Shown piece by piece: positions 46,589-62,769 of a DNA stretch of 64,000 nucleotides. The stretch lies in contig NZ_CP040098.1 of assembly GCF_005377625.1 (NCBI RefSeq), positions 3,027,279 to 3,091,278 of the forward strand, given 5' to 3'. Position numbers and translations under genes: made by a program. This DNA comes from Desulfoglaeba alkanexedens ALDC (lineage in GTDB: Bacteria; Desulfobacterota; Syntrophobacteria; Syntrophobacterales; DSM-9756). The first letter of the stretch is position 1; each line of letters opens with the position of its first letter. The notes under the pieces were generated by a model. That model was not told the DNA's origin and made no database searches. It saw only the letters and a program-made list of their open reading frames with translations.

Positions 46589-48274
46589 CTATTCGCGGAG
46601 GGCTCCATATTTGAGCAGGATGTCTCTCTTGGAGATGGATTCAGGAACTCCGGTTGGCATGCGCACATTTGTTCCGCATAGGATGAAAACCTCGTAGGCG
46701 TCGAAAATGGCGTAGCGGTCTCCCTCGAAGACAATGAGCTTGTTGCCGTTCTCCTGCCTGACCTTTTCGCGGAACTTGCGTATTCCAGTCTCCTGGCCCT
46801 TTTGTGCGAGCTTGTCCTGTTGATCCATCCATGTTTGAAAGGCGGCGGTAAGTGCCATCATGAGCACAGTAAGGTAAACATGGGATCGGAACGCGTCGGC
46901 ATTGTTTCGAGCCGGTCGTTCTATGAACCAGGCTTGCTTTGCCTCCCGGAACAAAGCGTTTTCTATTTCACTGCGGGCGTCATAAGCGTCGTAGACCTCG
47001 AGGGGTTTTTGCACCGAGCCATTGGTGAGGATGACGAGCGTGTCGGAGTCGGGATTGTTGCGTTTGAAAGGGTCGTCGAGTACCACCACAGCATTGAGTG
47101 GATTGGCGGTGAAGTCTTTGCGATTCTGATGACTGCCGCTGCCGAGCTCTCCATAGAATCCGGCCGAGGTGAGGGCTTCGATGCCCACAACGTCCCAGTG
47201 GTCCACAACGGTCGTCTTGTTCGATCCTTTACCAACCGAGCGGGCTTTCTCCCGGGTTTCCCGGATACCGCCGGCGGTAAGCGAAACAGCATCGGCATAG
47301 ACGTCCATGTTGGTTTTGGCTGGAATATAGAAAGTGATGTGCATGGTGTCATGGAGCCACCATAGGAACTTGCCGTCTATGAATCCACGGTCCATGGCCA
47401 AAGAGACGATGGTGGCATGATCCGCAAGGTTTGTGACGGCCTGCTGCACCACTTCACCGGCAAAGTCGACATCGCTCACTTCGATCGTTGCGAACCGCAG
47501 AGCAATAGGAAGGCGGCTTGCAGGGTCCCAGACCACCCATATTTTGAAGCCAAAAACGGTTTCCAGCACCTTTCGGATGCGTTTCTTCCGTCGCCGCAGC
47601 TCGGGAGCTTTTTCCTTGCTAACCTTGCCGCACCCCCGGCATCGCTCCGTGGACTGGATTTCCGAAGAATCCATGAGTGCATGGATTTTTTTGGGGAAGA
47701 AAGAATGGGCCGCCAGGATCGTCACAACGCCGTTGAAGAGCCGCTCCAAGGCACTGGCGGCGATGGCCTGGATGTAGGCGGCGATGGAATCCGGGCAATA
47801 GGGGCCACGGATGGGGGTAGGCCGCGGATCATCGCGGGATGGGTCAGAATCGTCGCAGGGCTCGGCAACAGGCTTCTTCCGACCTCTGGCAGAGGTTCCT
47901 TCACGGACCTCTCTGCCATTGAACCCTACCAGTCGCATGAGGGACTGAGAGGAGAGAATCACCGGATTAATGTGCCAAAAGAAGCGGAGCCCGGCGACGA
48001 TGCGCATGAGGTAGATGAGGATCACGGCGGGGAACTTGATATTGCTGGAACGCTGATTCCTGTTGGGATCAAGCCCCATGAAAAGCTTCATGATCCCGAG
48101 CTCTTCCAGAAAGTAGAAGAACTCGTCGAAAAGACCCGCTTCTCCGAGCCCATAGACCTCGGATATCTCCTCGCGCTCGGCAAGGTCCGAAGCGATTCCA
48201 GCCTGATCCCTGGAAGCCGTGCACCAACTGAGACGCTCGATAATTTTCTGCGACGCTTCAGCTATCGGGTTCAT
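46589..48274 (-). CDS. DDE transposase (IS4/IS1634-like)
   Basis: This is a 561-residue transposase. Candidate catalytic residues are Asp in HALMDSSEIQ, Asp in LAMDRGFIDGKFLWWL and Glu in YDARSEIENALFREAKQAWF, the last fitting the Y-(2)-R-(3)-E-(6)-K signature of IS4-type enzymes. A CRGCGK motif precedes the catalytic core. AAGGAGG precedes ATG 48274. The frame is intact, so the element may be active, but I could not define its ends. Confidence 0.82.
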   Translation of the reverse strand: MNPIAEASQKIIERLSWCTASRDQAGIASDLAEREEISEVYGLGEAGLFDEFFYFLEELGIMKLFMGLDPNRNQRSSNIKFPAVILIYLMRIVAGLRFFWHINPVILSSQSLMRLVGFNGREVREGTSARGRKKPVAEPCDDSDPSRDDPRPTPIRGPYCPDSIAAYIQAIAASALERLFNGVVTILAAHSFFPKKIHALMDSSEIQSTERCRGCGKVSKEKAPELRRRKKRIRKVLETVFGFKIWVVWDPASRLPIALRFATIEVSDVDFAGEVVQQAVTNLADHATIVSLAMDRGFIDGKFLWWLHDTMHITFYIPAKTNMDVYADAVSLTAGGIRETREKARSVGKGSNKTTVVDHWDVVGIEALTSAGFYGELGSGSHQNRKDFTANPLNAVVVLDDPFKRNNPDSDTLVILTNGSVQKPLEVYDAYDARSEIENALFREAKQAWFIERPARNNADAFRSHVYLTVLMMALTAAFQTWMDQQDKLAQKGQETGIRKFREKVRQENGNKLIVFEGDRYAIFDAYEVFILCGTNVRMPTGVPESISKRDILLKYGALRE

Positions 48275-50195: not shown

Positions 50196-50239
50196 TTGAC
50201 CTCTAAAAAATGATGATTTAGAGGAGCAATAAATTGAGA

Positions 50240-50402
50240 GTGGCCCTCGGGCCTTGAAAGGGAAGACGGTGCGATTCCGTCGCGGACCCGCCGCCGTGAC
50301 CGGGGACGAAAGCCGCAATCAAGCCACTGCTCGCAAGGGCGGGAAGGCGCGGCGAGTAGGATGATCCGGAAGCCGGAAGACCTGCTTTCAAAGAGATAGG
50401 GC
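50240..50402 (+). ncRNA. Cobalamin riboswitch 1 (left, upstream)
   Basis: This stretch carries cobalamin-aptamer hallmarks in order: AAAGGGAAGACGGTGCGATTCCGTC, then GACCCGCCGCCGTGACCGGGGACG, AAGCCACTGC, and the B12 box AAGCCGGAAGACCTGC. It is followed 56 bases later by an intrinsic terminator, so it looks like a transcription-attenuation riboswitch that turns off when cobalamin is abundant. An open frame on the opposite strand here is spurious. Confidence 0.9.
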
Positions 50403-50458
50403 TGCCTGGCTCCTCGTGGATGTGGGGGCGCGGCATCTAAAAGTGGGATTAAAAACGG

Positions 50459-50497: not shown

Positions 50498-50545
50498 TGC
50501 GTGAAGGGGGTAAGGGATCTAAAAAGGAAAATCTTTAGTTTAGAG

Positions 50546-50692
50546 ATGTTCCCGGATCAAGGGAAGGAAGTGGAAAGCTTCCGCCGCCCCGCGACTGTAA
50601 TCGGGACGAAAGCCGCAAATATGTCACTGTCCTAAAAGGACGGGAAGGCGCGGTGAGTAGGATGAACGAGAGCCAGGAGACCTGTTCCGGAA
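50546..50692 (+). ncRNA. Cobalamin riboswitch 2 (left, adjacent to btuB)
   Basis: A second aptamer follows in the same direction: CCGCCCCGCGACTGTAATCGGGACGAAAGCCGC, GTCACTGTCC, GGGAAGGCGCGGTGAGTAGG and the B12 box GAGCCAGGAGACCTG. It ends about 40 bases before the receptor ATG with no second terminator, so it may control translation by masking the ribosome site. The first receptor start lies at 50735. Confidence 0.9.
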
Positions 50693-50734
50693 GCGTTGGA
50701 TCTTCAAGACCTTCGAGGGAAAGGGAAGAAGAAG

Positions 50735-52666
50735 ATGAATAGATTTATATTATGCGTTCTCCTGATGTTGATAGTCATTTTTTTACCGCACGTTGCCACG
50801 GCGCAAGGACCGGCAGAAGCAACGGAGAAAACCAGGCAAAGCGAGCAAGGTACGGTTGTTCTTGAATCCATTACTGTCACAGCCGAACGCTTTCCGGTGG
50901 AAGAAAGAGAAAGCCCACGCTTTGTTACGGTGGTGAGCTCCGATGAACTCAAGGAAACCGGCGCCAATAACCTGGTGGACGCCCTACGCCGTGTGGGCGG
51001 CCTTTCTTATAGTGCATTCGGCGCCATGGGGGTCAGCCATGGCGGCATGAACAGCAGCGTCTCGATCCGCGGCATCAAGGACGGCGAACTGGTGCTAATA
51101 AACGGCGCCCCCATCCAAGGGGCGGCCGGACACGCCTATGACCTCAACACCATTCCCATTGACCAGATCGAACGTATCGAAATCATGAAGGGAGCGGCCT
51201 CCACTCTTTACGGCGCCGATGCCATGAGCGGGGTCATCAATATCATCACCAAGAAGCCGCGACGGGTGACGGCCTTCAAGGGATCTGTGGAGTTCGGCAA
51301 CGAGTCTTACCATAACCACAGCGTCTCCGCTTTCCTGCCCGGCTTTAATGTCGGTTTGAATTACCAGCATCTGGGGAATCAGACCGAGATCTCCAGGAGT
51401 TTCACTAAGAAATACCGCTATGACCAGGACGACATCGACAAGTATGCCTGGAACCTCAACGCGGAACCGATGAAGAACCTTTATCTGGATTATCTTGGAT
51501 CCTATTACGAAACCGGCTTTGAGAAGCATTACGACGGAAATGCAAAACCTTATGAGGGAACCGATCAAGAACATCAAAAAAACTTCGCCAACCTCCGATA
51601 CGAAACCCCTACCTTCAGCGCCAAGGCCTTCGGTACTTATGATGAGATGCAGCGCAAAGAATACACCAATCCCGGTGACCCGAAGGATCGGAACAAGAAC
51701 TACAACTTCGGACTCAATGGCGACTACCGGTTCCGACTCTTCGACTGGCAGATCAATGTGGGAAGCGAGTGGGTCTACCGGGGTGCGGACTACAACAACA
51801 AGTACGGCGAGCACCATCGAAACGATGTCGCTCCTTTCCTTCAGGTGAAAAAGACCTTCCGGGAACGCCTGACTGCGACCTTGGGGGCGCGGGAGCAATT
51901 CGTTCTGGGGGAATCCGGAACCGACGATTACGACCGTTTCCTGCCCAGCTTTGGTCTCACCTATAAAGCCACGGACGCACTGAACCTTTTCGCCAATGCC
52001 GGAAAGGCCTTTCGCGCGCCGGACTTCAACGACCTGTACTATGAAAGCACCTTTCTGGTCGGCAATCCCAACCTCAAGCCGGAAGAGGGCTGGACCTACG
52101 AGGCAGGTGTAAAATATGACGATGACATGTTCCGCCTGCGCTTATCCGGCTTTTACATGACCTATAAGGACAAAATCGAGTTGGACCGTTCCAGGGGCTA
52201 CCCCCAGACGTACATGAACGCCGGAGACTATGAAAGCAAAGGAGTCGAATGGGAATTTGGTGTCAACCCCTTCGTCCGTAACTTCAAGCAGGTGTGGATG
52301 CGTGACATTTCCGTTTATGCAGCCGGATACTGGGCGGACCCCACGGCCGAAGACCCCGACGGCAGGGAATACCAGACCGGGCCCAAACTTCAGACCAGTC
52401 TCGGCGTCAATTACCTCAGCGAGCCGCTGGTGCTGGATCTGAACTCCCAGATCCTTACATCCAGGGAGCGCGATCTCGACAGCTACTCAGTGCTCAATTT
52501 TTACGGAAAATGCAGACTCCGGAAGGGCTATCTGACCTTCAGCGTGGACAACATCTTTGACGAAGAGGTTCAGGTTTACGGCGATCTGACGGAAGACGCA
52601 TCAAATCGGTATGCCTATTACGAGGTGGAGCGGCTTTTCAAGGTGGGATATGAAATCGATTTTTAA
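50735..52666 (+). CDS. btuB: TonB-dependent corrinoid receptor (BtuB-like), copy 1
   Basis: This 643-residue outer-membrane receptor has a signal peptide (residues 1-23, ending ATAQ), a TonB box-like ESITVTAERF, a plug domain with GVINIITKK and a C-terminal 22-strand barrel ending in Phe (EIDF). Placement under two cobalamin riboswitches makes corrinoid the likely ligand. GAGGGAAAGGGAAG precedes ATG 50735. The gene overlaps the CobN-like gene by 17 bases. It is one of two such receptors in the island, about as long as family members (610-680). Confidence 0.9.
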   Translation: MNRFILCVLLMLIVIFLPHVATAQGPAEATEKTRQSEQGTVVLESITVTAERFPVEERESPRFVTVVSSDELKETGANNLVDALRRVGGLSYSAFGAMGVSHGGMNSSVSIRGIKDGELVLINGAPIQGAAGHAYDLNTIPIDQIERIEIMKGAASTLYGADAMSGVINIITKKPRRVTAFKGSVEFGNESYHNHSVSAFLPGFNVGLNYQHLGNQTEISRSFTKKYRYDQDDIDKYAWNLNAEPMKNLYLDYLGSYYETGFEKHYDGNAKPYEGTDQEHQKNFANLRYETPTFSAKAFGTYDEMQRKEYTNPGDPKDRNKNYNFGLNGDYRFRLFDWQINVGSEWVYRGADYNNKYGEHHRNDVAPFLQVKKTFRERLTATLGAREQFVLGESGTDDYDRFLPSFGLTYKATDALNLFANAGKAFRAPDFNDLYYESTFLVGNPNLKPEEGWTYEAGVKYDDDMFRLRLSGFYMTYKDKIELDRSRGYPQTYMNAGDYESKGVEWEFGVNPFVRNFKQVWMRDISVYAAGYWADPTAEDPDGREYQTGPKLQTSLGVNYLSEPLVLDLNSQILTSRERDLDSYSVLNFYGKCRLRKGYLTFSVDNIFDEEVQVYGDLTEDASNRYAYYEVERLFKVGYEIDF

Positions 52667-55600
52667 GCCTCACAGTGCAATGCGGCCATGGCCGGGCCTT
52701 GCGGTGGTATGCGCCCCGGCTCTGGCGTTCCTGCTTCTGACGGGAGCAGCGGCTTCGGCGCAGGGGAATACCATCGGTTTCTTTGTCGGTGACTCCGACG
52801 CCTACACCTGCGTGCAGGCCGTCAAAAAGCTCGACCTGCCGCAGGTGGAGATCGGCGTTTTCACCGAGGAAGACGTCGCCGATCCCCGAATGGCGGAGTT
52901 TGTCAAGCGCATGGATATCGCGGTGGTCGACATCATGCCGCGCCAGCCGGGGGAATGGCTCCTGGCCAACATGGCCGCTCTTAAGCCGGAAGCCATAATC
53001 TACGCAGTGCGACATTCCAGTCACACCAGGGATTATCTGGACGCCGGCTTTATCATGGACCCCACGGTTCAGAGCTACTTCCAGTTCACCTCGGTCCGGA
53101 ACCTCACCCGCCTGATCCAATTCTTGGCCAAACGCGATTTAAGGATGGCTGTCGAAACGTCTCCACCGGATCTCCCGCCCCAAAACGCCCTCTACCACCC
53201 TGATGCACCCTCGCTCTTCGCGGACCTGGAGTCCTATGCGGCATGGTACCGGCAAAGCGGCCGATATCAGGAGAAGGGTTTATGGGATTTGATGATAGTC
53301 TTTCCCACCTCCCCCATTGATTCCAAAAAGGAGCCGGTGGACGCCCTGGTGCGGGCATACGAAGCAAACGGGATCAACACGGTCGTCTGGCTGCGGGATA
53401 TGGAGGGGTGGGACAAGACCTTAGAGCGCCTGATTTCTTCTCCTCCGCTGAAAGGCCGCTTGGGCTCCGTTACCGGACTGACCTTTAAATTCAGCTCTAC
53501 GCTCTCCGCCGATTTGCTGCCGATCCTTCAAAAAGCGGACGTTCCGGTCTTCAATCCCCAGATGATTTTCTTTTCCACCGGCGAGGAGTGGTCGGCCTCC
53601 AGTCAGGGTATCTCACCCGTGGGGATATCCTTGCAGTTTTCCGTGCCCGAACTTTCCGGTCTGGTGGAGCCGACGGTGATCGGTGTCAAGGAGCGCGTGA
53701 CAACCGACTCTCTAGAGGTCAACACCTATCGCTACGTGCCGGTGACGCCCCTGGTGGAAAAAATGGCGCGCCGGGCGGCTCGCTGGCACCGATTGCGGCA
53801 GATGGAAAACAAGGACAAAAAGATCGTCCTGGTCTATTACAACCACGGGGCCGGCAAACAGAATATCGGCGCAAGCTATCTCAATGTCTTTAGAAGCATC
53901 CGCGAAATCATCCAGGCGATGCAACGGGAAGGCTATCGTATTGAGGGTGAGCTCACCGAAGAGCAGGTCATGGAACTGCTGCTCAAATCCGGTCGTAATA
54001 TCGGTTCCTGGGCCCCGGATGAACTGGACCGCCTGCTTCGGGAGGGAAACGCGGCTTTTGTGGACATGGCCGACTACCGGCGCTGGCTGGCCGAGACCCC
54101 GCCCGAATTTCAAAAAAAGGTGATAGAGCAGTGGGGAAGGCCGGAGGATTCCAACATTATGGTCAAAGACGGCCGGTTTGTCATCCCCTGCGTCCGGCTG
54201 GGCAACCTGATCCTGGTCCCCCAGCCGGTCCGGGGCTGGAGCGATGATCCTGAAAAACTCTATCACAGCACCGTACTTTATCCCCACCATCAGTACATCG
54301 CCTTTTACCTGTGGCTGCAAAAGGTCGTCAAGCCGGACGCCATGATCAGCCTGGGAACCCACGGCACCCACGAATGGCTACCCGGAAAGCAGGCCGGATT
54401 GAGCCATATCTGTCCGCCGGAGGTGCTGATCGGCGATATTCCCAGCATCTATCCCTATATCGTAGACGATGTGGGCGAGGGGCTGCAGGCCAAGCGTCGG
54501 GGCCGGGCCGCGATCGTCGATCACGCCACGCCGCCGTTTAAAAAAGGCGGTATTTACGAAGAATATTCCAACCTGGCCGCCTTGATCAGCGAATATGAAT
54601 CCTCTGCTTCGGAAAAGATCCAGGCGGCCAGACTGGAGCGGATTCGGGAGATGACCTTGAAACTCGGCCTGGACAAGGACCTGGATCTTAAGGTGGTGGA
54701 TGACGACGCCCTGGAAAGAATTGAGCATTACCTGTTGGAACTGAAAACCGAGATGATCCCCTACGGGCTCCACACCTTCGGGGTCTCTTGCCAAGGGGAA
54801 GGACTGGAAGAGACCGCCGCGGCCATCGCTTCCAAGGGTGGTCGATCGGTGGACTTCTACAAAGCGCAGCTTACAGAATGCGGGCCGTCGGAGATGGCAA
54901 ATCTAATGCGCGGCCTGCGCGGCGGATACATTCCCCCGGCATCGGGAAACGACCCTATCCGCAACCCCGAAAGCCTGCCTACCGGCAAAAACTTTTACGG
55001 CTTTGATCCGGACAAGGTGCCTTCCAAGGAGGCTTGGGCGAACGGGGAGAAGGCGGCAAACGAAGTGATCGAAGCCTACCGGCGGAAGCATGAGGGCAAA
55101 TTTCCCGAACAGATCGGCGTGGTGCTATGGGCGGTGGAAACCATCCGGGACGAGGGGATCAATGTGGCTACCGCCTTGAAGCTCTTGGGAGTGCGCCCGG
55201 TCTGGGACCACCGCGACAAGGTGACCGGCGTGGCTCCGATTCCCGGAAGCGAGTTGGGACGGCCGCGGATCGATGTCCTCCTTCAGATGTCGGGGCTGTT
55301 CCGGGACACGTTCCCAACCGTGGCGCTCCTGCTGGACAAGGCCGTCAAGCAGGCGGCGGTGCTCACCGATGTGGAGAATTTTATAAAAAGCCACAGCGAA
55401 GAGATCCGCCGGCAACTGACAGAGCACGGGTACACGGCAGAGGAGGCGGAAAAGCTCTCCCTGGTGCGGCTTTTCAGCGCTCCGCCGGGGGCCTACGGCA
55501 CCAAGGTCGATGATATGACCGGGGCAAGCGGTCTCTGGGAAGACGACCAGGTGGTGGCCGAGCAGGGCTTTATCGACATGGTTTCCTACGGCTATTCCAC

Positions 55601-56627
55601 GGAGATCTGGGGTAAGCCGCTGAAGGAGGTGTACCGAGGCAACCTCAAAAAGGTGGATGCCACCCTACATTCCATCGGCTCCAATCTCTACTCGACCATG
55701 GACAACGACGACATGTTTCAGTACCTGGGCGGGCTTTCCATGGCGGTGCGCAAGGAATCGGGCAAGGACCCGGACGTCTATGTCTCCATGCAGAAAACGC
55801 TCGGTCAGGGCCACGTCGAACCGCTTGCTACCACCATCGGGCGGGAATTGCGCACCCGGTATCTGAACCCCAAATGGATTGCCGGGATGAAAGAGGAAAA
55901 CTACGCCGGCGCCCGGGAGATGGCGGAATTTGTCGAAAACATGTGGGGCTGGCAGGTGACCACGCCCAATGCCATCGACAAAGCCAAGTGGGAACAGACC
56001 TATGAGGTCTACGTGGAAGACAAGTACGGTCTTGAGATCGAAGAATTCTTCAACCGGGCAAACCCCTGGGCCTATCAGTCCATCACCGCCCGCATGCTGG
56101 AGGCTATCCGCAAGGGCTATTGGGAAGCGGATGAAAGAGTGAAAAAGAAGCTGGCTGTCGAATATGCCGTTAACGCGGTCGAAAAGGGGGTGGCCTGCTG
56201 CGATCACACCTGCAACAATCCTCTTTTGAATCAGATGGTGATGAATGTCATTTCTTTGCCCGGCGTACTCTCGCCGGAGGTGGTGGAACAATTCAAGCTG
56301 GCCGTGGAACAGTCGGCTGGAAAACCGTTGGATAAACTGGCGGCAGAGCGAGAGGAACTTTTGAAAGAGCTTCAGGATGGATTGCGCAAGGCGGCTCCTA
56401 GCGCCTCCGATCCGGCAACGGAAGCAACGGAGGCGCGGACCGACCGGGCCGAGGCCGCCCGCGGAGACGTGGCCCAAGCGGTGGAGGGCTACAAAATGGA
56501 AGAGATGAACCAGAAGGATGAGACCACGAATCTGCCCTCTTCGGGCGTTCAATGGGTGGCGTCACTGTTTGTGCTCCTGATTATCGGGTTGTTCGTCTGG
56601 GGGACGCGACGTAAACGACGAAAGTAG
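52650..56627 (+). CDS. Exported, membrane-tethered CobN/HmuS-like chelatase
   Basis: This 1325-residue CobN/BchH-type protein starts at ATG 52650 with AGGTGG upstream, inside the end of the receptor gene. A signal peptide (1-37, AAASAQG) is followed by the large chelatase domain with GTHGTHEWLPGKQ near 568 and ACCDHTCNN near 1183. A variable acidic linker and a C-terminal helix (VQWVASLFVLLIIGLFVWG) with RRKRRK tail follow, so the body is probably periplasmic. CobN normally works in the cytosol with CobS/CobT; none are here. Bacteroidete HmuS, a related CobN-like protein, sits in a similar gene set (TonB receptor, ExbB-like, DUF2149). Confidence 0.88.
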   Translation: MKSIFKPHSAMRPWPGLAVVCAPALAFLLLTGAAASAQGNTIGFFVGDSDAYTCVQAVKKLDLPQVEIGVFTEEDVADPRMAEFVKRMDIAVVDIMPRQPGEWLLANMAALKPEAIIYAVRHSSHTRDYLDAGFIMDPTVQSYFQFTSVRNLTRLIQFLAKRDLRMAVETSPPDLPPQNALYHPDAPSLFADLESYAAWYRQSGRYQEKGLWDLMIVFPTSPIDSKKEPVDALVRAYEANGINTVVWLRDMEGWDKTLERLISSPPLKGRLGSVTGLTFKFSSTLSADLLPILQKADVPVFNPQMIFFSTGEEWSASSQGISPVGISLQFSVPELSGLVEPTVIGVKERVTTDSLEVNTYRYVPVTPLVEKMARRAARWHRLRQMENKDKKIVLVYYNHGAGKQNIGASYLNVFRSIREIIQAMQREGYRIEGELTEEQVMELLLKSGRNIGSWAPDELDRLLREGNAAFVDMADYRRWLAETPPEFQKKVIEQWGRPEDSNIMVKDGRFVIPCVRLGNLILVPQPVRGWSDDPEKLYHSTVLYPHHQYIAFYLWLQKVVKPDAMISLGTHGTHEWLPGKQAGLSHICPPEVLIGDIPSIYPYIVDDVGEGLQAKRRGRAAIVDHATPPFKKGGIYEEYSNLAALISEYESSASEKIQAARLERIREMTLKLGLDKDLDLKVVDDDALERIEHYLLELKTEMIPYGLHTFGVSCQGEGLEETAAAIASKGGRSVDFYKAQLTECGPSEMANLMRGLRGGYIPPASGNDPIRNPESLPTGKNFYGFDPDKVPSKEAWANGEKAANEVIEAYRRKHEGKFPEQIGVVLWAVETIRDEGINVATALKLLGVRPVWDHRDKVTGVAPIPGSELGRPRIDVLLQMSGLFRDTFPTVALLLDKAVKQAAVLTDVENFIKSHSEEIRRQLTEHGYTAEEAEKLSLVRLFSAPPGAYGTKVDDMTGASGLWEDDQVVAEQGFIDMVSYGYSTEIWGKPLKEVYRGNLKKVDATLHSIGSNLYSTMDNDDMFQYLGGLSMAVRKESGKDPDVYVSMQKTLGQGHVEPLATTIGRELRTRYLNPKWIAGMKEENYAGAREMAEFVENMWGWQVTTPNAIDKAKWEQTYEVYVEDKYGLEIEEFFNRANPWAYQSITARMLEAIRKGYWEADERVKKKLAVEYAVNAVEKGVACCDHTCNNPLLNQMVMNVISLPGVLSPEVVEQFKLAVEQSAGKPLDKLAAEREELLKELQDGLRKAAPSASDPATEATEARTDRAEAARGDVAQAVEGYKMEEMNQKDETTNLPSSGVQWVASLFVLLIIGLFVWGTRRKRRK

Positions 56628-56636
56628 GAGAAAACC

Positions 56637-57377
56637 ATGGAATGGAAGAGCCTAGTGCTGGGAATTGCGTTCTGCGTGGGCATCTTCGCCGTCAAAAGCG
56701 GCGTGGGGCTCTCTTACTATATGTCCAAGACCACTTCCTCTCATGCTAGAGCGGTCGCATGGGCGGGGTTTGCCGCGACATATCTCCTGGTTTTCGCGGC
56801 TTGTGGCTACACCCTGGAAAAAATCGATCTGATGCAGCACCTGGTTGCCATTCAGGAGTGGATTCAATCGGGTATGCTGGTGCATCTGCTCATGGCCGCA
56901 ATGCTCCTTCTCTGGGGGCTGCGATTGCTGCGGGAAAACGGAGGCGCTGCCGGTAAAAGCCGCGGATGGATTTTGCTGACCGTCCCTTGCCCGGTCTGCG
57001 CCATGGTGATTCTTTTTTCCGTGGGCTTCATGACGGCTGCCTTCCAGGAATCGCCCCTCACAACGGCCGCCTTGCTCTACTTGGTTTTTCTCTTGATCAA
57101 CACGGTTACCGTAAAGATTATGAGCGCCACACGGAATCGGGAGTCGCCGGAATCGTTTCTGGGGGTGTCCATGTTGGCCATCGCGGCCTATTTTTTCCTT
57201 TCCGTAACGATCATGCCCAATATCGCCGACGCGGACAAGATCTACCAAATGGCACTGTATCCTTCGAATGCGGCCTTCGAAGAACCGCGGCGGCTTTTAG
57301 TCTTTGTAGTCGGCATGCTGGCCGCGTTTCTGTCCGTCTTCGGCATCACATTTCTTCGGATAAGGAAAATGGCATGA
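56637..57377 (+). CDS. DUF2162-like multispanning membrane protein with CPVC motif
   Basis: This 246-residue protein has about seven hydrophobic helices, a pattern I associate with DUF2162, a putative transporter family often near CobN-like genes. The helix LLTVPCPVCAMVILFSVGF has a CPVC pair in the membrane, a possible metal- or redox-active site. It starts nine bases after the chelatase stop and shares ATGA with the next gene. It could be a channel or transporter, or a motor subunit. The DUF assignment is from memory of the pattern and should be tested. Confidence 0.7.
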   Translation: MEWKSLVLGIAFCVGIFAVKSGVGLSYYMSKTTSSHARAVAWAGFAATYLLVFAACGYTLEKIDLMQHLVAIQEWIQSGMLVHLLMAAMLLLWGLRLLRENGGAAGKSRGWILLTVPCPVCAMVILFSVGFMTAAFQESPLTTAALLYLVFLLINTVTVKIMSATRNRESPESFLGVSMLAIAAYFFLSVTIMPNIADADKIYQMALYPSNAAFEEPRRLLVFVVGMLAAFLSVFGITFLRIRKMA

Positions 57378-58024
57378 CAGCAATCGGCGCTTTCCTGAAA
57401 ACCTTCATTTACCTGATTTCCGCTTCCCTGCTCTACCCGGTGCTGTTGCTCTTGTCGGTTCTCTGTCTGTACATCATCGTCTGTGGCGGAACCTTTTTTG
57501 CCGAGTGGTTGGAACGAACCAGGCTCCACAAATGTCCCCCACAGGACCTTCCGGATTTGCTTGCCAACGGTGACCCCTCGGCAGTGGTCGCTCACCGGGT
57601 CAATCGATACATTAAAACGCTTTTGCAGGTCATGCGCCGAAATGACGGCGTGGATGCGGCCGTTGAAAACCTCCTTCAGCAGGAGACCCTGATGCTCTGG
57701 AAGTCGATCGATCGCCTTTGGCTTCTCGTCCGGGTAGCCCCGGCCTTGGGCCTGCTCGGCACCTTGATTCCCATGGGAACCGGCTTGGCGGCCCTGGGCC
57801 AAGGCGATATGACGCAGCTTTCCGCGGACTTGGTGGTCGCGTTCACCACCACTGTTGCCGGTCTCGCCGTCGGGACCGCGGCCGTCGTCATGTACACGGT
57901 CCGGCGACGCTGGATCGAGGAAGACGTGAAGAATATGGAACTGGCAACCGAGCTGCTGACATTGCGAACCGAGAGAGACAAACATGCGTTATTTGAAAAA
58001 ACGGCGAATGAGGCACATCGGTAA
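57374..58024 (+). CDS. MotA/TolQ/ExbB-family proton channel protein
   Basis: This 216-residue protein has an N-terminal helix pair, a cytoplasmic loop and the family signature APALGLLGTLIPMGTGLAALGQGDMTQLSADLVVAFTTTVAGLAVGTAA, which contains the conserved TolQ/ExbB transmembrane helices. Such proteins form the pentameric stator that uses proton motive force to drive TonB, TolA or the flagellar motor. It starts at ATG 57374, coupled to the DUF2162-like gene and overlapping the next gene by 41 bases. No TonB gene is present. Confidence 0.88.
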   Translation: MTAIGAFLKTFIYLISASLLYPVLLLLSVLCLYIIVCGGTFFAEWLERTRLHKCPPQDLPDLLANGDPSAVVAHRVNRYIKTLLQVMRRNDGVDAAVENLLQQETLMLWKSIDRLWLLVRVAPALGLLGTLIPMGTGLAALGQGDMTQLSADLVVAFTTTVAGLAVGTAAVVMYTVRRRWIEEDVKNMELATELLTLRTERDKHALFEKTANEAHR

Positions 58025-58343
58025 AGGACCTGGAGAACCGGCTTTCCAGGAAGACGATCCCATGACCGGCGTTGCAAACTTGTTTGACATCGGGTTGGTC
58101 TTCATTGTGGGGCTTATCATGGCGCTTTTCAGCGTCTATCATCTTCAGGACCTTTTCAGCGAAACTTCTTCATTTACCATCGTCAAGCAAAAACCGAAAA
58201 CCGAGGAGATGGAGATCATCACCAAAGAGGGCAAGAAGATCAAAGCCATCAAAGTGACCAAAGCCACGGTTCAAGGCCGGGGCCAACGCCTTGGTACGGC
58301 TTACAAACTGGAAGACGGGACCATGGTCTATGTGCCGGAATAG
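57984..58343 (+). CDS. DUF2149 protein with ExbD-like membrane helix
   Basis: This 119-residue protein has one N-terminal membrane helix (NLFDIGLVFIVGLIMALFS) with Asp35 in the position of the proton-carrying Asp of ExbD, TolR and MotB. A C-terminal periplasmic domain (about 60-119, with EMEIITKEGKKIKAIKVTKA) follows. This matches DUF2149, whose members lie next to ExbB-like genes. With the upstream protein it should make a proton-driven stator. GAGAGA precedes ATG 57984. Confidence 0.82.
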   Translation: MRYLKKRRMRHIGKGPGEPAFQEDDPMTGVANLFDIGLVFIVGLIMALFSVYHLQDLFSETSSFTIVKQKPKTEEMEIITKEGKKIKAIKVTKATVQGRGQRLGTAYKLEDGTMVYVPE

Positions 58344-58741: not shown

Positions 58742-58808
58742 CGGGTTTGCGAAAACCAAATCCTTCAAGGCCCGGTTTTCAAGCCTTTATAGCAGCTCCG
58801 GGAATTGC
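58742..58808. repeat. About 67-bp repeat, middle copy
   Basis: CGGGTTTGCGAAAACCAAATCC and on to CCGGGAATTGC. It recurs in inverted orientation at 49266-49332 and in the same orientation at 63042-63109. Here it supplies the last ten codons and stop of the cbiZ-like gene. Confidence 0.8.
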
Positions 58809-59678
58809 TGTTGCCCTGGTGAAGTTTTGACGTGATTCTTTTATCTGCTTGAAACCGTTTTGTTTTTGCAGCGCCTCCATGACCCCTTCATGGACGGCCT
58901 TGCCAATGAGCTCCCCGATCTTGCTGTGTCCGCCTGTGTAGGTGACCTTCGGCCCGTTGACGCCTGAGACCACAATCGCGTTGTCCGTGCCTGTTCCGGT
59001 CGCCTGGACCGATTCCGTGTAGGAACTCTGGACGCCGAGATCCTCGAAGGCCGCGGTCTTTGCCTCGGTGAGCGTGATGATCGCCCGCGCCATGGCCCCG
59101 TCCGTAAGCTCGGCATTGGTCAGGAGGATGACGTTGACTGTTCCGTGGGGTTCTTTATCTCCTGTTTTCCCCTCGATGTGCTTTCCTTCATCCACCCCGG
59201 TGCGGAGGGCGTTGGTCCTGGCTCCTGCGGTCACCAGTGCGGTCACCACGAAGGGAGGGTACCGCTTCGTTACAACGGCGAGGTTCTTCATGTCCGCGGC
59301 TGTGCCGAGCTGGGCGATCTTTTCTTCCGGCACCCCGCTTTCCATGGCGATCCTTTTCTTGATCCCGCGCATGTAGACCTTGCCGCCCACTTCATCCCTG
59401 GTCTTCATCTCCTTACAGACCTTTTTGAAAAGGCCGGGATGGGCGGAATGGTTCACGGCGATCCTGCCCTGGATGAGGCCATCGTTCGTGGAAAGCATCC
59501 GTCTATCCTCAGGGAAGGTGACGACAAGGGTCTTTTCCCAAAATCCGTCCCTTTCGGCCACCTTTATGAAGGCTTTGGCATCGAGTTCAGCAGGAAGCTG
59601 GATCTCCTCTGATGCCCCTGCCGAAAGTGTGACAAGGAGCAGGATCAGGGTAAAAAATACCGACATGGTTCGTTTCAT
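58779..59678 (-). CDS. cbiZ: Exported CbiZ-like adenosylcobinamide amidohydrolase
   Basis: This 299-residue protein has the CbiZ signatures VTAGARTNALRTGVDEG, VNVILLTNAELTDGAMARAI and ATGTGTDNAIVVSG. CbiZ cuts the amide bond between the corrin ring and the aminopropanol arm, giving cobyric acid for corrinoid remodelling. Unlike classical cytosolic CbiZ, it has a signal peptide (residues 1-22, SAGASEE), so it should act in the periplasm. Its start is ATG 59678, with AAGGAG upstream. The C-terminal AIPGAAIKA is encoded by a repeat, so the original C-terminus is altered. Confidence 0.88.
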   Translation of the reverse strand: MKRTMSVFFTLILLLVTLSAGASEEIQLPAELDAKAFIKVAERDGFWEKTLVVTFPEDRRMLSTNDGLIQGRIAVNHSAHPGLFKKVCKEMKTRDEVGGKVYMRGIKKRIAMESGVPEEKIAQLGTAADMKNLAVVTKRYPPFVVTALVTAGARTNALRTGVDEGKHIEGKTGDKEPHGTVNVILLTNAELTDGAMARAIITLTEAKTAAFEDLGVQSSYTESVQATGTGTDNAIVVSGVNGPKVTYTGGHSKIGELIGKAVHEGVMEALQKQNGFKQIKESRQNFTRATAIPGAAIKA

Positions 59679-59765: not shown

Positions 59766-61817
59766 TCAGATGTCATATCTTAGGCCGAGGAAGAAGCTTC
59801 TGCCCGGCATGGGGTAGTTCTTGACGTATTCGTAGTCCTTGTCAAAGAGGTTGTTGATCTCTCCCCTCAGGGTGAGGCCACCGAACCGGTCAAAGTCAAG
59901 AATCTTCTTGCTCATGGTAAGGTTAGCCACGGTGAAGCCCCCCTCCTCGACAACCGGGGCCACCCACGTAGGCGGCCCGGCACCCAGCCAGTCGTCCACA
60001 TCCTTTTTCCCCGTATAGGCGAGGTTGAGAGCAGCGGTGAAGTCCTTCCGGTTAGAAACCCGGAGTCCGTATGAGACGTTGGCCTCCTCCGTATAGAGGA
60101 GGTCCTTTCCGGTCTCATCATCCTCGTATTTGAAAAGATAGGTGAAGTTGGCATAAGGCCTTATTTCGTAGCCCCATGGGAAAAAACCGCCGATGTCCCA
60201 GGAGATCTCGCCCTCGAGGCCGTCTATGTCCGCGCCGCCGGTGTTTTCCCACGTCATTATGCCCCCTGGTCTGGATACGGACTGGATCTTGTCCTTGAAG
60301 TCCGTCCAGAAAAAGGTCATGGATGCGTTGAAGGAGCGCCGGGAAAGATCGAACCCGACCTCCCAGGTTTCGCTCTTTTCTGGGTCGAGATCAGGGTTTC
60401 CAAGGTAATGAACGTAACTGGTGTAGTCGTAGGCCAGCTCATTCGCCGCCGGCATCCTGAAGCCTTCGCCGTAGTTGGCCCTGAGCTTGAGGTAATCCGT
60501 CAGGAGAAAGGCGACCCCAAGGCGGGGGGTGATCTCCTGATCGTCTTCATTGCGTCCGCGCGGTTCTTTCATTTCCACGTCGTACCAGTCGATCCTGAAG
60601 CCGCCGGTGAAGATGAGCCTTTCATCAAGGAATCTGAGCTTGCCGAGGAGGTAGCCTGCGGTGTTGTCGTACTCGCTCTTTTTGGGGTCGTATGTGGCAT
60701 CGATTTCGTAGTTGTCCCAGTTGAAACCGGCTACAAGGCCCACATGATCCGTGTCAAAGGCGACCTGGGCCTGGGCCCCTTCCTGTTCGGTCTTGGTCAG
60801 TGTTGGGATCCCGTCATCCCAGCCGTCTGGATCGCTTGACATGCGGTCAAACCATGTATCCTCGTCCTCGCCGTCGAAATACCTCGCCATCCAGGAGAAG
60901 GTCCCGCCAGGGGTCCGGCCCTCGTACATGAAATCCAGCGACTCGTTATCCGCGTCCTTATAGTCGTCGAGGTCGTTTTTTGCCAGATATCCGGGGTCTC
61001 CGATGCCTTCCCCATCGTAGTCGTTGTATATGACGCCGATCCGGTGACCCGGCAGGAACTCGTAGCCAAGATTGACATAGACGTTTTCCTGGCGGGAAAA
61101 TCCGGTGTTTTCGTATTGGTCACCGCTGGCGGTATCGTAGTCATCCATCGAGCGATGTTCATATGTGCCGTAGAAATCGACCCCCTTGGTATTGGCCGAA
61201 AGACCCATCGCTTCAGCATCATATTCCCAACTTGCGAGGCCTCCCTCTAGAAATGCGGAGTTATCCACGCCACGTTTCGTGATGATATTGACGACCCCGC
61301 CCATGGCCGCCGAGCCATACTGAACCGAGGCCGGACCCCGAATGATCTCGATCCTTTCCACGTTGTTTCGAATCATGAGCTTGGCCGCATTGCCCGTGGC
61401 TGCGCGTCTTCCGTTGATGAGGATGAGTACGTGGCCCATGAGATCGTTTCCGTGGGTCTCGGTCCGAAACCCCCTGATGCCGACGGCGGTCAGCGCGCCG
61501 GGATAATTCTGGATATGGCCCACGGCCTTTTCTGCAAGGATCTCCCCAAGGGTATGAGCGCTCGAGGCCTTGATCTCCTCCTCGTCAATGACCGTTATGT
61601 TCGCGGTAACCTCTTTGGCCTTCTCTTCGACCCTGCTTGCCGTGACGACGATCTCATCAAGGGTAAGGGCAGCCTTCACATCGCCGTCGGCGGCGAGCGT
61701 CTGATCCAGCGGCAGCATGGTCAGCAGCACGGCGGCCAGAACGCAGGCCGCCCATTTTGATCCTCGGTTTTTTGCCGCCGCTACCGCGGCCCTATCGCCC
61801 CATCTTTGTACCTTCAT
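59766..61817 (-). CDS. btuB: TonB-dependent corrinoid receptor (BtuB-like), copy 2
   Basis: This 683-residue receptor has a signal peptide (LAAVLLTMLPLDQTLAADG), a TonB box LDEIVVTASR, a plug with VRGPASVQYGSAAMGGVVNIITKRG-type sequence (here EIIRGPASVQYGSAAMGG) and a barrel ending LGLRYDI. CGGAGG precedes ATG 61817. It lies 87 bases upstream of cbiZ in one operon, under the right-arm riboswitches. It is divergent in sequence from copy 1, so the two may take different corrinoids. Confidence 0.9.
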   Translation of the reverse strand: MKVQRWGDRAAVAAAKNRGSKWAACVLAAVLLTMLPLDQTLAADGDVKAALTLDEIVVTASRVEEKAKEVTANITVIDEEEIKASSAHTLGEILAEKAVGHIQNYPGALTAVGIRGFRTETHGNDLMGHVLILINGRRAATGNAAKLMIRNNVERIEIIRGPASVQYGSAAMGGVVNIITKRGVDNSAFLEGGLASWEYDAEAMGLSANTKGVDFYGTYEHRSMDDYDTASGDQYENTGFSRQENVYVNLGYEFLPGHRIGVIYNDYDGEGIGDPGYLAKNDLDDYKDADNESLDFMYEGRTPGGTFSWMARYFDGEDEDTWFDRMSSDPDGWDDGIPTLTKTEQEGAQAQVAFDTDHVGLVAGFNWDNYEIDATYDPKKSEYDNTAGYLLGKLRFLDERLIFTGGFRIDWYDVEMKEPRGRNEDDQEITPRLGVAFLLTDYLKLRANYGEGFRMPAANELAYDYTSYVHYLGNPDLDPEKSETWEVGFDLSRRSFNASMTFFWTDFKDKIQSVSRPGGIMTWENTGGADIDGLEGEISWDIGGFFPWGYEIRPYANFTYLFKYEDDETGKDLLYTEEANVSYGLRVSNRKDFTAALNLAYTGKKDVDDWLGAGPPTWVAPVVEEGGFTVANLTMSKKILDFDRFGGLTLRGEINNLFDKDYEYVKNYPMPGRSFFLGLRYDI

Positions 61818-61863
61818 CTTTTCCTCCGTTTCCCGCCCGCGCGGGTTTTCCGAGTGTGGTATT

Positions 61864-62010
61864 CCCGGAACAGGTCTCCTGGCTCTCGTTCATCCTACTC
61901 ACCGCGCCTTCCCATCCCTTCAGGACAGTGGCTTTGTCGCGGCTTTCGTCCCGATTACAGTCGCGGGGCGGCGGAAGCTTTCCACTTCCTTCCCTTGATC
62001 CGGGAGCATC
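61864..62010 (-). ncRNA. Cobalamin riboswitch 3 (right, adjacent to btuB copy 2)
   Basis: Minus-strand aptamer matching riboswitch 2: CCGCCCCGCGACTGTAATCG, then GCCACTGTCC, GGGAAGGCGCGGTGAGTAGG and GAGCCAGGAGACCTG. It ends about 47 bases before the receptor ATG at 61817. Confidence 0.9.
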
Positions 62011-62057
62011 TCTAAACTAAAGATTTTCCTTTTTAGATCCCTTACCCCCTTCACGCA

Positions 62058-62096: not shown

Positions 62097-62156
62097 CCGT
62101 TTTTAATCCCACTTTTAGATGCCGCGCCCCCACATCCACGAGGAGCCAGGCAGCCC

Positions 62157-62319
62157 TATCTCTTTGAAAGCAGGTCTTCCGGCTTCCGGATCACCCTACT
62201 CGCCGCGCCTTCCCGCCCTTGCGAGCAGTGGCTTGATTGCGGCTTTCGTCCCCGGTCACGGCGGCGGGTCCGCGACGGAATCGCACCGTCTTCCCTTTCA
62301 AGGCCCGAGGGCCACTCTC
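62157..62319 (-). ncRNA. Cobalamin riboswitch 4 (right, upstream)
   Basis: Minus-strand aptamer matching riboswitch 1 (AAGCCACTGC, GGCGCGGCGAGTAGG, AAGCCGGAAGACCTGC). Together with riboswitch 3 it forms the second tandem pair. Confidence 0.9.
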
Positions 62320-62769
62320 AATTTGTTGCTCCTCTAAATCATCATTTTTTTGAGGTCAAGAAAAAAGTTGCACCCTCTCTTGAAGAGCAAAGTGATAGCT
62401 AAACCCATCTTTCCAGTACGTCTCAGATATATGTGCGATATCGTCATGTTACGGTCACCCTAACAGAGTGTTGCAAAAACCAAATATAGTTCGTGCATAT
62501 CCGTTGATGTCACTCTTTTGGAATCTTGGTCGTCCATCAAGGGCTTTCGTACCAAGGTCGGCTTCAAGATACCACCGGCAGCCTATCTGACAAAGAAAGG
62601 ACAGCAATCCGAATCCCTGGTCGCCGGCAAGCCGGTTCCTACAAAAAGCCAGTAAAACCTATTCTGGGACAAATTTTTAATTCTTCATGATTTTTTTTTC
62701 AGGAGCTAGTATTTCAAAATCTGTGGTAAGGCTACGGTCGCCCGGCTTCGATCTGTTTTCGGACATACC

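Follow-up and report, generated by a model that had tools for sequence, protein, structure and literature searches.

A CobN-like chelatase predicted to reside in the cell envelope and encoded in a cobalamin riboswitch operon of Desulfoglaeba alkanexedens

Periplasmic dechelation of heme has been demonstrated for HmuS, the cellular electron source of which is described as unknown (PMC12583661, PMC13227078). Its metal site lies between His-538 and His-1209 (PMC12583661), the accompanying HmuU/HmuV proteins have been published as energising the outer-membrane receptor (PMC10100974; PMC12583661), and HmuT and HmuV are held to look specific to heme transport (PMC10100974). Also, hmu-like operons of Bacteroides fragilis with a cobalamin riboswitch, two receptors and no HmuY were described, for which a role in cobalamin metabolism was suggested (PMC10100974). 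The exact role of the CobN protein encoded on pSZ77/pGLOV01 of Trichlorobacter (Geobacter) lovleyi is stated to be unknown, and no CobST was found there (PMC3403914). In Pseudomonas aeruginosa, PA1922-PA1925 comprise a TonB receptor gene of the Zur regulon together with cobN-like and Exb-type genes and are induced by metal starvation (PMC4542158). Here, we analyzed a stretch of 64,000 nucleotides (nt) of the genome of Desulfoglaeba alkanexedens ALDC (contig NZ_CP040098.1, positions 3,027,279 to 3,091,278; termed the window), which contains a gene for a CobN-like class I chelatase behind two cobalamin riboswitches.

We interpret this protein as a chelatase that acts in the envelope as part of a machine for vitamin B12 salvage and is presumably coupled to a stator. 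Among the class I chelatases, it probably represents a corrinoid-specific form that is located in the envelope and linked to a stator. Since a chelatase-like protein with export signal is encoded in a B12-controlled operon together with a proton-motor-like gene pair, processing of B12-like molecules in the cell envelope is suggested, in parallel to the stripping of heme iron by gut bacteria.

The CobN-like protein and its predicted location

The protein matches the Pfam CobN-Mg_chel profile with 1057.9 bits, and no other PF02514 gene is present in the single-contig genome of 3.37 Mb; the nearest named homologue is found in Desulfobacteraceae bacterium UBA2174 (95% identity across the protein). 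The features of the region are listed in Table 1. The operon runs from two cobalamin riboswitches via the genes for a TonB receptor and the CobN-like protein to those for DUF2162, ExbB and DUF2149, the last three following the CobN-like gene with overlaps or a 9-nt gap between neighbors.

Table 1. Positions of the features in the window, with the basis of each assignment or a remark
Feature	Position	Strand	Basis or remark
Cobalamin riboswitch 1	50221..50403	+	RF00174, 109.6 bits
Cobalamin riboswitch 2, tandem with riboswitch 1	50537..50704	+	RF00174, 91.8 bits
TonB-dependent outer-membrane receptor, first operon gene	50735..52666	+	profile search
Exported CobN-like class I chelatase (predicted)	52650..56627	+	1325 amino acids; shares 17 nt with the end of the receptor gene
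Signal peptide, residues 1-37	52650..52760	+	predicted cut between ASA and Q
GTHGTHEW motif	54354..54377	+	His571 corresponds to HmuS His-538
TMDNDDMFQYLGG motif	55695..55733	+	Asp1021 where HmuS has His-1209
CCDHTC (Cys1183, Cys1188), CX4C before the membrane helix	56196..56213	+	alignment
C-terminal transmembrane helix, residues 1298-1316	56541..56597	+	hydropathy
DUF2162 membrane protein	56637..57377	+	PCPVC at residues 117-121 (56985-56999)
MotA/TolQ/ExbB-family protein	57374..58024	+	PF01618, 55.5 bits
DUF2149, one membrane helix and small beta domain	57984..58343	+	invariant Asp35 at 58086-58088
CbiZ (adenosylcobinamide amidohydrolase family), own signal peptide	58779..59678	-	profile search, N-terminus
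Second TonB-dependent receptor, convergent operon	59766..61817	-	profile search
Cobalamin riboswitch 3	61852..62036	-	RF00174, 94.2 bits
Cobalamin riboswitch 4	62152..62334	-	RF00174, 109.2 bits

The N-terminus of the CobN-like protein, MKSIFKPHSAMRPWPGLAVVCAPALAFLLLTGAAASA followed by Q after the cut, combines three basic residues with a hydrophobic core (mean hydropathy of 2.73 over a 12-mer) and an Ala-x-Ala site; a twin-arginine motif was not found in it. The C-terminal helix is followed by a basic tail with RRKRRK as last residues. Both elements were called by hydropathy plus conservation across the clade, in place of SignalP/TMHMM, with thresholds of at least 1.8 for an N-terminal hydrophobic 12-mer and at least 1.6 for a C-terminal 17-mer. 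The N-terminal stretch was present in 105/112 rows of the clade of the CobN-like protein and the C-terminal one in 112/112. Among these rows, 11 or more appear to be duplicates of a contig already counted (identical scores), so that the effective number is nearer 100. Two of the seven N-terminal misses come from contigs that lack the N-terminus. Neither element occurred in canonical CobN (n = 8) or BchH (n = 2). Thereby, the signal peptide, single C-terminal helix and basic tail noted in a preliminary description of this reading frame, made from the sequence alone, were confirmed. With signal peptide and C-terminal membrane anchor, the body of the protein should therefore face the periplasm, anchored to the inner membrane; this location, already proposed in the preliminary description, is supported by the predicted topology and its conservation in the clade.

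Family tree, active site and possible ATPase partners

For the tree, 52 rows out of 127 sequences were used in a quick calculation with support from the Shimodaira-Hasegawa-like approximate likelihood ratio test (SH-aLRT) only. Canonical CobN (8/8) and BchH (2/2) each formed their own side of the tree with full support, and the CobN-like protein was found in a 42-row set together with Aureibacter HmuS and DUF2149-linked forms (SH-aLRT 97), HmuS being one long single branch, the exact place of which is unsure. The protein is thus placed outside the CobST-dependent CobN proteins, as had been proposed. Its best score with the NCBIfam CobN models was 953.5 with a cut-off of 1619.

These results bear on the alternative that the protein is an ordinary cobaltochelatase subunit with a non-exporting N-terminal segment, working together with a cytosolic ChlID-type protein. 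Such genes are named CobN in public annotation, and the genome encodes one ChlID-type ATPase/VWA (von Willebrand factor A) protein with a full-length match to TIGR02442 (691.5 bits, below the curated cut-off of 779.45). We consider this alternative very improbable, given the conserved signal peptide and C-terminal helix, the placement outside the canonical clade and the distribution of the putative partner: a ChlID-type subunit (E ≤ 1e-50) was found in 19/35 DUF2149-positive versus 11/19 DUF2149-negative genomes, and 16 of the 35 positive ones thus do without it. With a frequency so similar in both sets, the presumably cytosolic ChlID-type protein is not associated with the exported chelatase across genomes. 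CobT was not detected in the genome by profile search. The earlier argument that no ATPase partner is available has to be treated with caution, as the ChlID-type protein is encoded in this genome.

The two motifs singled out in the preliminary description, GTHGTHEW and ACCDHTC, proved to be real. His571 of GTHG was conserved in 128/128 aligned sequences and was lost in one (L178; L numbers denote the collected loci) of 16 Pseudomonadota sequences added later. In this exported CobN-like protein (L178:9419-13366) the GTHG motif is gone and both metal sites look degenerate. Position 1021 is Asp in 109/112 and Gly in 3/112 clade rows; elsewhere, Asp is present in 7/8 canonical CobN and His in 2/2 HmuS and 2/2 BchH. 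Therefore, the riboswitch-linked group carries a residue of the cobaltochelatase type and not of the porphyrin type. Among the Pseudomonadota, the CobN-like proteins of L179 and L180 have His at this position (TDHPFEYLGG) and are possibly of the porphyrin type; the riboswitch scan was empty at both loci. Another Pseudomonadota group of exported CobN-like proteins (L183-L187) has the active-site motifs GRHSTYEF and NND, and the L183 gene is located behind a riboswitch together with CbiA- and CobO-like genes.

The active site also speaks to the alternative that the CobN-like protein is HmuS, i.e. a heme or metalloporphyrin dechelatase merely under B12 control. HmuS (9d26) is its best match in PDB by sequence, the exported architecture and the operon genes are the same, and the name BtuS, coined in a 2003 comparative-genomics paper, has been linked with the salvage of metalloporphyrins (PMC6460266, with reference to that paper). 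Nevertheless, we regard this alternative as improbable. The HmuS motif LSLDHxxEFMGG (His-1209, Glu-1212) is replaced by TMDNDDMFQYLGG with Asp for His-1209 and Gln for Glu-1212, and the methionine-rich insertion of HmuS domain IV (HmuS 700-912, about 213 residues) has no counterpart in the CobN-like protein. The alignment begins at HmuS residue 263, the head domain with the heme ligands Met-79 and His-254 being too divergent to be placed. In addition, the context of riboswitches and CbiZ differs, and no riboswitch was detected by the RF00174 scan at the HmuS locus L160. Judged by its sequence, the CobN-like protein is therefore not HmuS, though built like HmuS: because of Asp1021 and the absent methionine-rich insertion it is not filed as such.

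Gene neighborhood, ExbB/DUF2149 pair and paired cysteines

A DUF2149 match above the cut-off was obtained for 42 of the 395 genomes from the phylum (Desulfobacterota). In 37 loci around these genes (L033-L069), genes for receptor, DUF2162, ExbB, DUF2149 and CobN are found repeatedly though not in a fixed order, and CbiZ is often among them; a fragment (L070) and two loci with weak DUF2149 matches that are ordinary ExbB/ExbD (L071, L072) were left out of the counts. A second sample, starting from CobN in named genomes, comprised 78 loci, of which 34 were covered by at least 4 kb on each side. In these, ExbB was present in 34/34, DUF2149 in 33/34, DUF2162 in 32/34, the TonB receptor in 31/34 and CbiZ in 20/34 loci. 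Two CobN-like genes per locus were observed in L089, L094, L105, L120 and L146. The proposed similarity of the neighborhood to hmu loci was borne out by Aureibacter, where the order is TonB-dependent receptor, HmuY, CobN, hypothetical protein, ExbB and DUF2149.

A cobalamin riboswitch on the same strand upstream was found in 26 of the 30 phylum loci that could be scored because no contig end cut them off (misses: L035, L038, L053, L055); five phylum loci with upstream sequence but no initial match were rescanned, whereby L040 gained a riboswitch. Seven of nine further loci tested also had one upstream (misses: L112, L120). The view that HmuT and HmuV are specific to heme transport (PMC10100974) is contradicted by these data, as relatives of both, namely DUF2162-like and DUF2149 proteins, are encoded in more than 30 B12-riboswitch operons (26 + 7). 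Among the Pseudomonadota, 4 of 14 scanned loci (of 16) had an upstream riboswitch (L181, L182, L183, L184), the one at L184 being weak (33.5 bits, cut-off 31.5).

In the window, a convergent unit of riboswitches 3 and 4, the second receptor and CbiZ faces the CobN-like operon. The CbiZ neighbors in clade loci were fusions of Peripla_BP_2 (BtuF-like) and CbiZ in 4/4 cases tested, all with signal peptide (L044:7337-9385, L049:6655-8721, L040:3752-5899, L116:7629-9989), and a hydrophobic N-terminal stretch occurred in 47/51 long CbiZ frames. These fusions are likely periplasmic cobamide amidohydrolases; with their export and their hydrophobic N-termini, removal of the nucleotide loop should therefore also occur outside the cytoplasm. 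The link to corrinoids made in the preliminary description is thus backed by the riboswitches, CbiZ and Asp1021.

Further observations concern cobalamin-related genes of this and other loci. Of the CbiK-type (class II) cobaltochelatases, just one was found in the genome (G000:C1:285793-286563, minus strand; L074:7784-8761, minus strand); it has a signal peptide and sits behind a cobalamin riboswitch (G000:C1:287172-287357), so that a second chelatase of the same genome may be exported, too. The reading frame L075:12050-14014 joins a BtuF-like domain to a membrane domain of the Gate (nucleoside recognition) type; a riboswitch and BtuCD-like genes lie next to it. A DDE transposase gene (46589-48274, minus strand) precedes the B12 region of the window.

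The ExbB protein of the window has kept the conserved Thr positions (T130 in 89/89), and its LGT and TxxGL blocks can be aligned to those of the canonical ExbB from T. lovleyi. In DUF2149, the membrane residue Asp35 is invariant (76/76) and was aligned to the Asp of ExbD, yet with an hhalign probability of 1.8%. An assignment of DUF2149 to ExbD, for which the motif register fits, was kept as a guess, as neither this profile comparison nor a profile search against PDB nor Foldseek with a predicted model (predicted local distance difference test, pLDDT, of 72.5) gave anything significant. Of the motor-coupled class suggested in the preliminary description, ExbB and DUF2149 genes are indeed present alongside the chelatase gene, and driving of the chelatase by their products is hypothetical.

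The pair could instead merely assist the neighboring receptor as an additional Ton motor, with the CobN-like protein acting as an unpowered periplasmic protein that binds or dechelates corrinoids. This matches the published reading of HmuU/HmuV in Bacteroides (PMC10100974, PMC12583661) and the receptor in 31 of the well-covered loci, but we consider it doubtful. The operons of T. lovleyi L157 and of L053 encode a separate ExbB-ExbD(-TonB) beside ExbB/DUF2149, and DUF2149 accompanies CobN in all but one of the 34 CobN-found loci. Moreover, DUF2149 was present in Methanosarcina acetivorans, one of the control genomes. To our knowledge, this organism has no outer membrane, and the motor therefore need not serve one.

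The PCPxC motif of DUF2162 is invariant (66/66) and aligns with a CXXC of HmuT. A relation of DUF2162 to DsbD/CcdA or NicO was considered and dropped, since a good model (pLDDT 86.6) had no fold match at E ≤ 0.001. As DUF2162 is annotated as 'predicted transporter' and is so frequent in the well-covered loci, and as HmuT was suggested to move heme (PMC10100974), an inner-membrane importer is conceivable in which the CobN body binds corrinoids and hands them over to a DUF2162 permease driven by ExbB/DUF2149. We hold this to be unlikely, because DUF2162 is absent from 16/16 Pseudomonadota loci retaining CobN, ExbB and DUF2149, the genome is already equipped with several BtuFCD-like sets close to riboswitches, and the metal-site residue His571 is retained.

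Cys1183 and Cys1188 of the CobN-like protein are invariant in 112/112 clade rows and form a CX4C in a part of the tail that canonical CobN and BchH do not have. In the Pseudomonadota loci devoid of DUF2162, this motif is missing in 15/16. With the absence of DUF2162 assigned by hand from the loci, both occurred in 38 rows, neither in 18, CX4C alone in 2 (L159, L178) and DUF2162 alone in none. This correlation corresponds to one (well-supported) or two independent events in the tree and is not significant; the co-occurrence is suggestive of a thiol relay.

Proposed role and comparison with described systems

In the salvage machine that we favor, the TonB receptor would bring a corrinoid into the periplasm, CbiZ would trim its nucleotide loop and the CobN-like body would bind the corrin ring. 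A proton-driven ExbB/DUF2149 stator would then take over the part played by ATP-dependent CobST or ChlID in the cytoplasm, and electrons for the reduction of cobalt may be passed on by the CXXC of DUF2162 together with the CX4C in the tail of the chelatase. As to the direction, removal or exchange of cobalt, by analogy to HmuS and heme iron, is tentatively preferred to the other two possibilities, namely a non-catalytic role in binding or transport, which appears somewhat doubtful, and insertion of cobalt into metal-free corrinoids, which appears rather unlikely. The most far-reaching form of this reading, a thiol-assisted envelope machine that is driven by the proton-motive force, removes or exchanges the cobalt of B12-type corrinoids before entry into the cell, as a biological route of decobaltation or re-metallation, and uses ExbB/DUF2149 in place of the AAA+ ATPase of CobN/ChlH, is speculative and rather unlikely. 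We know of no enzyme demonstrated to remove cobalt from a corrin.

Several points weigh against the proposed role. Destruction of B12 by the products of a B12-repressed operon would be odd, an argument against cobalt removal alone. Around positions 1010-1013, DNRE-type residues as in canonical CobN are missing from the clade, and the substrate therefore need not be hydrogenobyrinic acid a,c-diamide. Homology of DUF2149 and ExbD is not significant by profile or fold comparison, the DUF2162 model is without a fold match, and the genome does encode a ChlID-type protein. HmuS is represented by two sequences, a long-branched one in the tree and a partial one outside it, and the published role of HmuU/HmuV is that of a receptor motor. 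Activity, location and substrate of the riboswitch-linked members are all predictions from sequence data.

If the proposed role is true, class I chelatases would fall into two kinds, cytosolic machines driven by ATP and envelope machines driven by protons, with the envelope branch tuned by metal: heme iron for HmuS, perhaps zinc for PA1923 and corrinoid cobalt for the window protein. Anaerobes such as sulfate reducers could then recycle or repair corrinoids outside the cytoplasm. His versus Asp at position 1021 and the paired cysteines make the stripping or swapping of B12 cobalt directly testable.

A substantial part of this picture is already known, namely the HmuS dechelatase and riboswitch-preceded hmu-like operons in Bacteroides. 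New are, as predicted here, the corrin-type active site, the breadth of distribution, the BtuF-CbiZ partner and the paired-cysteine correlation. With canonical CobN of CobNST, the window protein shares the fold family, the Asp1021-type active site and EWLPGK, whereas canonical CobN is without signal peptide, C-terminal helix and CX4C tail and belongs to a separate clade. With the HmuS system of Bacteroidota (hmuYRSTUV), it shares an exported, membrane-anchored class I chelatase with CX4C in its tail, TonB receptor, ExbB and DUF2149 in the operon and a membrane protein with a CXXC, HmuT and DUF2162 being aligned at this motif; in contrast, the window operon has a B12 riboswitch and a CbiZ partner, no HmuY was seen in it, and its chelatase differs from HmuS in the two active-site residues and the insertion described above. 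The B. fragilis operons likewise have a riboswitch before an hmu-like operon, but come from Bacteroidetes, were compared by description and are mentioned in passing in the cited part of PMC10100974, without evidence on active site, CbiZ or tree. PA1922-PA1925 combine a TonB receptor with cobN-like and Exb-type genes as well, yet are zinc-regulated and were likened by description and not by sequence. At 38% identity to the window protein, CobN of T. lovleyi pSZ77/pGLOV01 belongs to the same exported set in the tree and is encoded in the same riboswitch-led operon.

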